Below are positions 13,920 to 16,250 of a DNA stretch of 64,000 nucleotides, one piece after another. Numbering within the stretch: position 1 is the first letter of the stretch; the number at the start of each line of letters is the position of its first letter. The notes below the pieces were generated by a model. It did not search any database, was not told the DNA's origin, and saw only the letters and a program-made list of their open reading frames with translations. The translations under genes were made by a program, and so were the position numbers. Location: positions 2,158,501-2,222,500 of the forward strand of contig NZ_JYNQ01000001.1 in NCBI RefSeq assembly GCF_000934685.1, written 5' to 3'. The stretch comes from Lacinutrix sp. Hel_I_90. GTDB lineage: Bacteria > Bacteroidota > Bacteroidia > Flavobacteriales > Flavobacteriaceae.

Positions 13920-14663
13920 TTGACTATTCCTTTCGAACCCACACTTTTAGGTTACCACATAAATAGCCATCTCATTTTAGAGTATCTCGCGTTCTTTGTG
14001 GCCTTTCGTTACTACCTGTTTTTAAGAAAGCAGTCTTACGATACTATTTCTGGAAGCAATAGACTCTCTATAATTTTAGGTGCGGCCATTGGCGCTTTAC
14101 TGGGATCGCGACTCATTGGGCTATTAGAAAACCCGCTTGTGGCATGGTCTCAGGAAAATCTTATCACTCTTTTAAACACTAAGACCATTATGGGTGGATT
14201 GTTTGGCGGATTGCTAGGTGTAGAACTCGCAAAAAAGCGTATTGGCGAAACGGAGTCCTCGGGCGATTTGTTTGTATTTCCCATTATTCTGGGAATTTTT
14301 ATAGGTCGTATGGGTTGCTTTTTATCGGGAATCAACGAATTTACTTACGGCAAAGAAACAACCTCTGTTCTTGGAATGGATTTGGGCGATGGACTATTAA
14401 GACACCCCACGGCATTATATGAACTAGTATTTCTTGTTGTTTTATTTTTCAGTTTAAAACGACTGCAAAGTACTTCAACTTTAAACAATGGCGAGGTGTT
14501 TAAATGGTTTATGGTTTTATATTTCACATTTCGCTTCTGTATTGAATTTTTAAAACCGAATGTGTTTTATATTATAGGTTTGAGCACGATTCAAATTTTA
14601 TGTGTAATTTGTTGGTTATACTATTCTCGATTTATACTTCAAAAACTAAATTATGCCAGTTAG
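13920..14663 (+). CDS. Divergent Lgt-like (prolipoprotein diacylglyceryl transferase family) protein
   Basis: This 247-residue polytopic membrane protein is related to Lgt, which moves diacylglyceryl from phosphatidylglycerol to the lipobox cysteine. Family marks are a glycine-rich GGLFGGLLG block (92-100), IGRMGCFLSG (R130 kept), RHPTALYE (161-168), and a helix with R205 and E209 (FRFCIEF). The histidine that canonical Lgt carries before the second glycine pair (HGG) is phenylalanine here, and the asparagine of GRxGNF is C133. It is thus probably a paralogue with altered chemistry. It overlaps the next gene by 11 bases. The start is a TTG. Family is fairly sure, activity is not. Confidence 0.8.
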   Translation: MTIPFEPTLLGYHINSHLILEYLAFFVAFRYYLFLRKQSYDTISGSNRLSIILGAAIGALLGSRLIGLLENPLVAWSQENLITLLNTKTIMGGLFGGLLGVELAKKRIGETESSGDLFVFPIILGIFIGRMGCFLSGINEFTYGKETTSVLGMDLGDGLLRHPTALYELVFLVVLFFSLKRLQSTSTLNNGEVFKWFMVLYFTFRFCIEFLKPNVFYIIGLSTIQILCVICWLYYSRFILQKLNYAS

Positions 14664-16047
14664 AAACTATACGTACTACGATTTTACCTTAAGCCTTTGT
14701 CCAGAATGTTTGCGTCGTATAGATGCTAAAATCGTATTTGAAGATGGCAATGTTTACATGTTAAAACGCTGTAAAGAACACGGGAGTTCTAAGGTGTTGA
14801 TTGCCGATGATATTGAATACTACAAAAATATAAGAAACTACAATAAACCTAGCGAAACGCCTTATACTTTTAATACTAAAACAGACTATGGGTGTCCTTA
14901 CGATTGCGGGTTGTGTCCAGACCACGAACAACACAGTTGCTTAACAGTTGTTGAAGTGACCGATCGTTGTAATTTAACCTGCCCAACGTGTTATGCCGGT
15001 TCATCACCAACGTATGGGAGACATCGTACTTTAGATGAAGTCAAAGCGATGTTAGATACGATTGTTCGCAATGAAAAAGAGCCAGATGTGGTACAAATTT
15101 CTGGAGGAGAACCTACCATTCATCCACAGTTTTGGGAGATTATGGATTATGCAAAATCATTACCCATCCGGCATTTAATGCTGAATACCAATGGTATAAA
15201 AATTGCTAAAGATCTCGCTTTCGCAGAACGACTAAAAACCTATGCTCCAGATTTTGAAGTGTATTTACAATTTGATTCTTTCGAAAATAGCGTGCTTCGT
15301 GAATTACGTGGTGCCGATTTGAATGACGTAAGAACCCAAGCCATTGCAAATTTGAATACCGTGAACCTCTCAACGACCTTGGTCGTAACGCTTCAAAAGG
15401 GATTGAATGACCATGAAATTGGAAAAATTATCGATTACGCGCTACTGCAAAAATGTGTTCGTGGCGTAACACTTCAACCTACACAAATTGCCGGACGCTT
15501 AGAGCATTTTAATCCTGAGACCGATCGCATGACACTCACAGAGGTTCGTAGAAAAATCATTGAGCAAACCACTATATTTAATAGTGATGATCTTATTCCT
15601 GTACCATGTAATCCAGATGCTTTGGTTATGGGTTACGCGCTTAAATTAGGCGAAGCGGTGTTTCCGTTAACCCGTTATATCAATCCTGCAGATTTATTAG
15701 ACAATAGTAAAAACACTATTATTTACGAGCAAGATGAACAGCTTCAAGATAAAATGATTGCATTGTTTAGCACCGCGAATTCCGTAGAAGTTGCAGAAGA
15801 AAATTTGAAATCTATTATGTGTTGTTTACCCAATATTGATGCGCCAAACTTAGGCTATGATAATTTATTTCGGGTCATCATTATGCAATTTATTGACGCT
15901 TATAATTTTGATGTACGCGCGATTAAAAAATCCTGTGTTCATATTGTAAACAAAGACAATAAAATCATTCCTTTTGAAACCATGAATTTGTTTTATCGTG
16001 ATGATAAAAAAGAGCACTTAGAACGCCTTAGAAACGAAATGATATGA
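14653..16047 (+). CDS. Tes/MJ0619-like multi-cluster radical SAM protein
   Basis: This 464-residue radical SAM enzyme has four cysteine regions: an N-terminal CPEC plus KRCKEHG pair (C16, C19, C40), a second cluster motif around C81, C85, C88 and C96, the radical SAM CNLTCPTC (C106, C110, C113), and C-terminal CC at 390-391 with C428 in SCVHIV. SAM-binding GGEPT is at 151-155. This layout, including the FIDAYNFDV...CVH tail, matches the MJ0619/tetraether synthase (Tes) group, which act on methyl or methylene carbons of unactivated substrates including lipid chains. It overlaps the Lgt-like gene by 11 bases and the next gene by four, implying coupled translation. Substrate unknown; a lipid is inferred. 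Confidence 0.83.
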   Translation: MPVRNYTYYDFTLSLCPECLRRIDAKIVFEDGNVYMLKRCKEHGSSKVLIADDIEYYKNIRNYNKPSETPYTFNTKTDYGCPYDCGLCPDHEQHSCLTVVEVTDRCNLTCPTCYAGSSPTYGRHRTLDEVKAMLDTIVRNEKEPDVVQISGGEPTIHPQFWEIMDYAKSLPIRHLMLNTNGIKIAKDLAFAERLKTYAPDFEVYLQFDSFENSVLRELRGADLNDVRTQAIANLNTVNLSTTLVVTLQKGLNDHEIGKIIDYALLQKCVRGVTLQPTQIAGRLEHFNPETDRMTLTEVRRKIIEQTTIFNSDDLIPVPCNPDALVMGYALKLGEAVFPLTRYINPADLLDNSKNTIIYEQDEQLQDKMIALFSTANSVEVAEENLKSIMCCLPNIDAPNLGYDNLFRVIIMQFIDAYNFDVRAIKKSCVHIVNKDNKIIPFETMNLFYRDDKKEHLERLRNEMI

Positions 16048-16250
16048 AGTATTTACTATTAGAAGTCGGGAATCTTAATGGCTTGGTATTTTTGCTTATC
16101 GCCATCATGCTTGGTCCAGCCATTGTATTAGCAATCATTGGTTTTGCTGTGAAAAATAAAAACAAAAAAGCAGCCAAAATTTTATTTATTCTAGCTGCCG
16201 TATATGTTATTGTTAGTTTGGGGGTTTGTGGGGCGCTTCTTACTGGTTAA
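16044..16250 (+). CDS. Small two-helix membrane protein coupled to the radical SAM gene
   Basis: This 68-residue protein has two predicted transmembrane helices (about residues 13-36 and 45-66) joined by a short basic loop (KNKNKKAAK). Its start codon overlaps the radical SAM stop as ATGA, so it is the third gene of the coupled cassette. I recognise no family. Its end overlaps by 11 bases the end of the opposite-strand DUF4345 gene. It may be a membrane partner of the two enzymes upstream, which is inference from gene order only. Confidence 0.65.
   Translation: MKYLLLEVGNLNGLVFLLIAIMLGPAIVLAIIGFAVKNKNKKAAKILFILAAVYVIVSLGVCGALLTG

Follow-up and report, generated by a model that had tools for sequence, protein, structure and literature searches.

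The window analyzed here, a stretch of 64,000 nucleotides from Lacinutrix sp. Hel_I_90, contains a cassette of three genes that encode a divergent Lgt-family membrane enzyme (LgtL), a radical S-adenosylmethionine (SAM) enzyme of the Tes/TrsS type (rSAM), and a small membrane protein. This cassette is a real and conserved three-gene unit, whose members are inherited together: an Lgt-fold enzyme in which the catalytic arginines are kept, a radical SAM enzyme with the Tes fold, and a small membrane protein that has a conserved cysteine at the end of its last helix. As judged from the sequences, the cassette may constitute a system dedicated to protein lipidation that supplies its own acceptor, in which LgtL would lipidate the cysteine of the small protein and rSAM would modify the lipid, an interpretation that we regard as an even call. 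The small protein is probably the acceptor and is so named below, and the acceptor step is held with more confidence than the radical step.

The Three Genes Stay Together in Bacteroidota

An earlier note, written from the letters of the window, had described the three genes as overlapping, and the coordinates of the open reading frames (ORFs) agree, with overlaps of 11 bases between LgtL and rSAM and of 4 bases between rSAM and the small protein. A scan of named genomes returned at least 579 relatives of rSAM, of which the best 80 loci were kept, a set that leans toward the close kin of the window (mostly Flavobacteriaceae, but also Saprospiraceae, Lewinella, and Fulvivirga). All 80 fetched stretches contained an LgtL match, split in three of them, and at least one homologue of the small protein. 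According to the ORF coordinates, LgtL and rSAM overlap in 61 of the 80 loci, lie within 500 nucleotides in 15, and are further apart in 4, and the nearest acceptor copy, of one to four per locus, starts no more than 30 nucleotides from the end of rSAM in 75. When the nearest outer neighbors were clustered by ORF, 46 distinct pairs were obtained across the 80 loci, which indicates that the unit stays together as its surroundings change, and the neighbor comparison found no gene other than the cassette members that was common to the loci. The LgtL and rSAM distances of 92 loci were correlated with an r of 0.924, a value reached by none of 500 permutations, although shared species history would also raise r. 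In agreement with these data, LgtL adjoined rSAM in all 14 loci of relatives; the small protein had a BLAST match in 12 of them, and loci L044 and L045 carry a divergent one between LgtL and rSAM.

The conserved pairing that the earlier note had asked about was also found across the phylum. In a survey of 296 Bacteroidota genomes, LgtL was scored from 130 bits upward and rSAM from 368 bits upward, limits that were set after the scores had been seen. On this basis, rSAM was present in 24 genomes and LgtL in 25, both were present in 24, LgtL occurred alone in 1, and rSAM occurred alone in none (Fisher, 2e-34); LgtL-rSAM co-occurrence exceeds chance. Lower-scoring LgtL matches, which extend to 250 of the 296 genomes at an E value of 1e-5, are mostly of the size that canonical Lgts produce. 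The two genes lie on one contig and no more than about 1.1 kb apart in 22 of the 24 genomes with both, and G092 and G328 keep them inside separate contigs. Because both separated enzymes are kept in G328 and the acceptor remains with rSAM (L133, L134 being the LgtL half), this genome was counted toward linkage. Two further genomes have an rSAM below the survey limit: in G153 a distant LgtL (62 bits) adjoins it, and in G124 the enzyme is of the Tes type and neither LgtL nor an acceptor was found nearby (L130). In G268 rSAM reaches the end of its contig, and contig C147 of the same genome carries an rSAM end followed by three acceptors, one with IGLGICG and two with IGAGICG; a TGA is present in one of the search matches.

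LgtL Keeps the Predicted Catalytic Residues and Changes the Putative Contacts

The reading of LgtL as an Lgt-like protein holds, since it scores 90.1 bits against the PF01790 LGT profile, above the gathering score of 24.9, and keeps the family arginines. Against the NCBIfam lgt equivalog TIGR00544 it reaches 41.4 bits, below the cut-off of 118.9. The predicted model, with a predicted local distance difference test score (pLDDT) of 89.1, had the Escherichia coli Lgt structure 5azb as its sole standout match, indicating an Lgt fold; the structure work covered 41 of 76 picked LgtL rows and 32 of 43 picked rSAM rows, plus the window. A genome search of the host (3.82 Mb, two contigs) yielded two LGT-family genes, the cassette LgtL (89.5 bits) and a canonical lgt at C1:1382937 (187.4 bits). 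Moreover, 15 of 60 genomes, that of the window included, gave a strong rSAM match, and all 15 hold another LGT gene of at least 177 bits. The proposal that LgtL is not the housekeeping Lgt is supported by these canonical genes.

To count residues in E. coli Lgt numbering, 96 LgtL rows were used, after the split ORFs of L048, L071, and L072 had been dropped (L034 and the frame-broken G008 locus, L046, were dropped from A2, and L046 from A1). The equivalents of R143, R239, Y235, E202, G142, G145, and G154 are present in 96 of 96 rows, R143 corresponding to R130 of the window protein and R239 to R205, within the FRFCIEF segment singled out by the earlier note. In contrast to these kept residues, the N146 place is Cys in 96 of 96 rows, Y26 is His in 93 of 96, and H103 is replaced by Met in 81 rows and by Val in 11; the window protein has H17, M91, and C133 at the Y26, H103, and N146 places. 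The alignment thus agrees with the replacement of the GRxGN asparagine by C133 and corrects the claim that a phenylalanine takes the place of the histidine before GG: M91 (MGGL) stands there, and the phenylalanine precedes a second GG at 96-97. The canonical Lgt of the host retains Y26, H103, R143, N146, G154, and R239. In E. coli Lgt, Y26 contacts the donor, R143 and R239 have been proposed as the catalytic pair, and the HGGL motif with H103 has been proposed as the site of lipobox peptide binding (PMC4728403). Y26, H103, and N146 are essential in E. coli Lgt, and H103 and N146 vary in nature (PMC13251419). By this comparison the catalytic residues of LgtL are kept and its predicted donor and acceptor contacts are changed, from which we infer that donor and acceptor may be new.

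A tree of 48 rows, comprising 29 LgtL sequences (three actinobacterial ones included) and 19 that we labelled canonical, contained a branch with 100/100 support that parts the 29 LgtL rows from 17 of the 19. The remaining two, L160 and L164, are long-branched LGT paralogues in an open fork on the LgtL side, and strict monophyly of LgtL is therefore not shown.

Some cassettes carry broken genes. LgtL is split in L034, and several genes are frame-broken in L046. A split LgtL with a whole rSAM ORF was observed in L034, L048, L071, and L072, the pieces in L071 lying kilobases apart, and decay or assembly errors are possible.

rSAM Has the Fold and Motifs of Tes

The assignment of rSAM to the Tes/MJ0619-type group is supported by profiles and by fold. 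It matches the Radical_SAM profile (85.2 bits) and that of the HMPTM (MJ0619) N-terminal zinc ribbon (72.3 bits), and its best NCBIfam profiles are TrsS (328.5 bits, cut-off 490) and Tes (289.8 bits, cut-off 450), both scores being below the cut-offs. Its sequence matches PDB 7tol/7tom with an E value of 1.8e-69. The predicted model (pLDDT 78.5, with low confidence at residues 368-396) matches 7tol over the full length (E 1.5e-35, template modeling (TM) score 0.77, 499 columns), and the gene has no internal stop, in-frame UGA (selenocysteine) forms being a feature of the TrsS family. The comparison of predicted structures that the earlier note had suggested places LgtL next to 5azb and rSAM next to 7tol. 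Of the three contrary outcomes named in that note (no second lgt, unpaired genes, an rSAM far from Tes), none occurred.

The Tes metal-site motifs C9x2C12x20C33x2H36, C73/C77/C80 plus a His, and CX3CX2C all have counterparts in rSAM, namely C16x2C19x20C40x2H43, C81/C85/C88/H91, and C106x3C110x2C113, with identical spacing of the rubredoxin motif; C319, M411, and C428 were also noted. In our mapping from the alignments, Tes Met439 aligns with M411 and Tyr459 with I431. Both residues are completely conserved in archaeal Tes, but the Y459F and Y459L enzymes are active (PMC9433317), and the loss of Tyr459 is therefore a weak mark against Tes membership. Tes, to which two lipids bind, joins lipid tails through C-C bonds; a sulfur-bearing lipid is seen as the likely intermediate, and the tunnel of the enzyme accommodates lipid tails (PMC9433317). 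By analogy, lipid-tail chemistry by rSAM is plausible. Separately, the rSAM of G124 (L130:5864-7321, + strand) scores 493.8 bits against the NCBIfam Tes cut-off of 450 and may be a true Tes-type enzyme in a Bacteroidota genome.

The Small Membrane Protein Ends in a Helix Followed by a Cysteine

Lgt enzymes are known for lipidating the cysteine of an N-terminal lipobox. The small protein of the window does not have this lipobox layout of ordinary lipoproteins; its cysteine is residue 62 of 68, after the second helix. Among its homologues the cysteine of the C-terminal region was found in 111 of 114 aligned rows, with a glycine two positions before it in 110 of 113, and 111 of 113 copies have a cysteine within the last 20 residues, with at least one such copy in 80 of 80 loci. 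The two copies that lack it belong to L103 and L087, both of which hold further copies. In the distant loci other membrane proteins stand next to or between the enzymes, forming 12 families with no BLASTP links at E 1e-3. These were picked by position beside the enzymes, a hydrophilic protein (L153c) being dropped, and all 12 end in a hydrophobic helix and a cysteine 1-14 residues from the end, as in IGAGAC, LLFGAC, LIFGSC, LSGGMC, and SGGLC. The cysteine was the sole invariant column in an alignment of 17 diverse acceptors. In 111 of 112 copies, the stretch ahead of the helix has a higher net charge than the stretch that follows the cysteine, a distribution that would place the cysteine outside in the predicted topology. 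The small membrane protein of the earlier note stands, and that note had missed the near-C-terminal cysteine, the probable acceptor role, and the sets outside Bacteroidota described below; its interpretation as a whole is partly supported.

Related Sets Occur Outside Bacteroidota

When a plasmid collection was searched with rSAM, ten records were obtained, and the neighborhood inspection covered those other than the haloarchaeal matches H4, H6, and H10. In three Actinomycetota records, rSAM is flanked by a gene of the Lgt family and by membrane proteins that carry a C-terminal cysteine: an M. branderi plasmid, an M. avium plasmid, and Nonomuraea (a record of 11.85 Mb filed as a plasmid). The M. 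branderi set consists of an LGT gene, two membrane proteins (ILSGGLC-TGLNP and IITVGVC-TGLNP), and rSAM, and the other two are alike. These actinobacterial rSAMs are 27-28% identical to that of the window. A plasmid of Persicobacter, a member of Bacteroidota, carries LgtL and acceptor with rSAM (L148).

The actinobacterial acceptor candidates at L150:5134-5589 and L151:4129-5235 have a proline-rich N-terminal region ahead of the helices and a tail like TGxNPxxY. In the Nonomuraea candidate, of 368 amino acids in total, the proline-rich N-terminal region is very long.

Proposed Lipidation of a C-terminal Cysteine

The acceptor would have the geometry of a lipoprotein signal helix, with a positive loop, a hydrophobic helix, small residues, and an outer cysteine, placed at the C terminus of a hairpin. 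Given the adjacent gene for an Lgt-type enzyme, it is simplest to suppose that the acceptor cysteine serves as the acceptor of LgtL. In the proposed pathway the small protein would insert like a lipoprotein signal helix, its lysine-rich loop remaining in the cytoplasm and its cysteine reaching the periplasmic face. LgtL would then move a diacylglyceryl-type lipid from a phospholipid onto the thiol of this cysteine, and the replacement of Y26, a donor contact, and of H103, a proposed contact of the peptide, would fit an altered donor and acceptor. Signal peptidase II would not be expected to cleave the product, because a valine precedes the cysteine in the window protein and only six residues follow it. 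Finally, rSAM would act on a lipid tail before or after the transfer, for example by linking an unactivated carbon through a C-C or C-S bond. A natural candidate substrate would be iso-branched tails, which are common in these bacteria. The first two steps appear to be the better supported ones, and the action of rSAM is modelled from its fold and the chemistry of Tes only. Somewhat more tentatively than the lipidation system itself, we suggest that the cassettes may represent an undescribed class of protein lipidation that spans two phyla or more. In this class, a dedicated Lgt-type transferase would put an rSAM-tailored lipid on a C-terminal outer cysteine of a small multi-helix membrane protein to give an uncleaved lipopeptide embedded in the membrane.

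Several observations weigh against this proposal. Y26, H103, and N146, all essential in E. coli Lgt, are all changed in LgtL, which might therefore not transfer diacylglyceryl. A Cys at the N146 place also occurs in 4 of the 19 rows labelled canonical (L160, L164, L167, and L169), so N146C alone does not define LgtL. The acceptor was not found with the LgtL of G092 (L131/L132, rSAM being on another contig) or of G075 (L140), where LgtL reaches 278 bits and the genome gave neither an rSAM match at E<=1e-40 nor a recognizable acceptor. The metal sites of rSAM vary, the [Fe4S4]N cysteines being gone in L129 and M. branderi and C81 being W in L038; Tes Met439 is not kept in L127, L128, and L129, and Tyr459 is I431 in the window. 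Relatives of rSAM in M. vanbaalenii and two haloarchaeal records stand without LgtL and beside a methyltransferase, whose gene lies directly 3' of a TrsS/Tes-like rSAM (L147, L149, and L152, the haloarchaeal ones on plasmids); no annotated Lgt gene was found in the inspected stretches of these three records, which show a second kind of partnership within this enzyme group. On the acceptor side, the residue before a lipobox cysteine is usually Gly, Ala, or Ser, whereas in the flavobacterial acceptor it is mostly Ile or Val (86 of 114). Of 11 other families from these loci that have a C-terminal helix, 3 also carry a cysteine in the last 20 residues, a background too small for a firm rate. One of these three (L075, 4582-4917) lies just after a cassette and is perhaps itself an acceptor. 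The acceptor cysteine could be kept for another reason, the 12 acceptor families may share remote ancestry, and the loci behind the statistics were selected for their similarity.

Alternative Functions of the Cassette

The two cysteines might instead belong to a pair of partners. The small protein would then be a partner or redox switch whose cysteine docks in the LgtL cavity, perhaps as a disulfide with C133, and thereby regulates or orients LgtL, which would lipidate something else. The Cys at the C133 place in 96 of 96 LgtL rows and the nearly as constant acceptor cysteine would fit, and other divergent Lgts with Cys for N146 are on record, with a disulfide suggested within the Leptospira Lgt (2026 mBio, PMC13251419). 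We nevertheless consider this improbable, since the one to four copies per locus and the fast-changing sequence around a fixed cysteine are substrate-like, and the loci share no other gene. The family, fold, and kept arginines of LgtL would also suit a second Lgt that serves some of the ordinary lipoproteins, with rSAM altering their lipid or general membrane lipids, and MSMEG_5408, with Y26H and N146C, has been reported with presumed low activity (PMC13251419). This would leave unexplained why a third gene product with its cysteine is present in all 80 loci and also in Actinomycetota, and the 100/100 branch that separates LgtL from 17 of the 19 canonical-labelled rows is not that of a recent duplicate; it appears slightly less probable than a partner role.

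A radical SAM enzyme with a tiny conserved protein is a common layout among ribosomally synthesized and post-translationally modified peptides (RiPPs). A pathway of this kind, in which rSAM would cross-link or oxidize the cysteine of a precursor and LgtL would lipidate the product, has lipidated RiPPs as a precedent (PMC12636315). It would be harder to reconcile with a cysteine predicted to lie outside and an rSAM of cytosolic type, with the full-length match to Tes, whose tunnel takes lipid tails, and with the 17 acceptors having no invariant column besides the cysteine, and we rank it a shade below a second Lgt. Least probable of all is the synthesis of a free membrane lipid, for example a tail-linked iso-fatty-acid lipid, in which LgtL would be a lipid-head transferase and the small protein no more than a scaffold. 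In a proposal by Zeng et al. (PMC8941075), the Tes homologues of bacteria link iso-branched tails to each other, but a scaffold need not retain a C-terminal cysteine across dissimilar sequences, and the window rSAM is below the Tes cut-off (289.8 versus 450 bits).

Comparison with Known Systems

Both enzymes belong to known families. LgtL shares with E. coli Lgt (PDB 5azb) the PF01790 family, the fold, and the seven residues listed above, and differs in N146 to C, H103 to M/V, and Y26 to H, in being a second gene besides the canonical lgt, and in its proposed acceptor, which is not a lipobox at the N terminus but a C-terminal cysteine in a membrane hairpin. With Tes (GDGT-MAS, MJ0619, 7tol), rSAM has in common the full-length fold, the rubredoxin, three-Cys-plus-His, and radical SAM motifs, and the Met439 equivalent; unlike Tes, it scores below the Tes profile cut-off, has Ile for Tyr459, and sits with LgtL and the acceptor. 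The TrsS radical SAM (seleno)protein family (NF045646) is its best profile match, although under the cut-off, and it has no adjoining methyltransferase, in contrast to the three inspected relatives from haloarchaea and M. vanbaalenii. The DAG-RiPPs (DybA, PMC12636315) resemble the proposed system in a small peptide lipidated on Cys and a metalloenzyme partner. In them the housekeeping pathway works on a lipobox at the N terminus, and the peptide is modified by a multinuclear iron enzyme, whereas the cassette has a dedicated Lgt-like enzyme from a separate family branch, a radical SAM enzyme, and a C-terminal cysteine.

Among the matches listed from the open-access literature, PMC7641849 and PMC8939145 included, we found neither the pairing of an Lgt-family enzyme with a Tes/TrsS-type radical SAM enzyme nor a C-terminal lipid acceptor of this kind, which is no proof of absence. 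If the proposal is true, a dedicated Lgt branch that has a C-terminal acceptor of its own would broaden protein lipidation in bacteria and suggest what some of the second Lgts with an altered active site do. Relatives of Tes are present in bacteria that are not known to make biphytanyl chains (PMC9433317), and the cassette would place such enzymes in the context of a substrate.

Gene Layout and Neighboring Genes

Coordinates of the cassette genes and of two codons of interest in the window
Feature	Position	Strand	Remark
LgtL, divergent Lgt-family integral membrane enzyme, 247 amino acids	13920..14663	+	TTG start
Tes/TrsS-type radical SAM enzyme (rSAM), 464 amino acids	14653..16047	+	Assigned from profiles, motifs, and predicted model
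Small two-helix membrane protein, 68 amino acids, proposed lipid acceptor	16044..16250	+	Homologue in 80/80 loci
LgtL C133 codon (E. coli Lgt N146 place)	14316..14318	+	Cys in 96/96 LgtL rows
Acceptor C62 codon, proposed lipidated Cys (SLGVC-GALLTG)	16227..16229	+	Column Cys in 111/114 rows

In distant cassettes, a gene of the isoprenylcysteine carboxyl methyltransferase-like (ICMT) family was observed after rSAM (L127:5883-6497 and L128:4784-5377, + strand), and in L128 a DUF4395 gene precedes LgtL.

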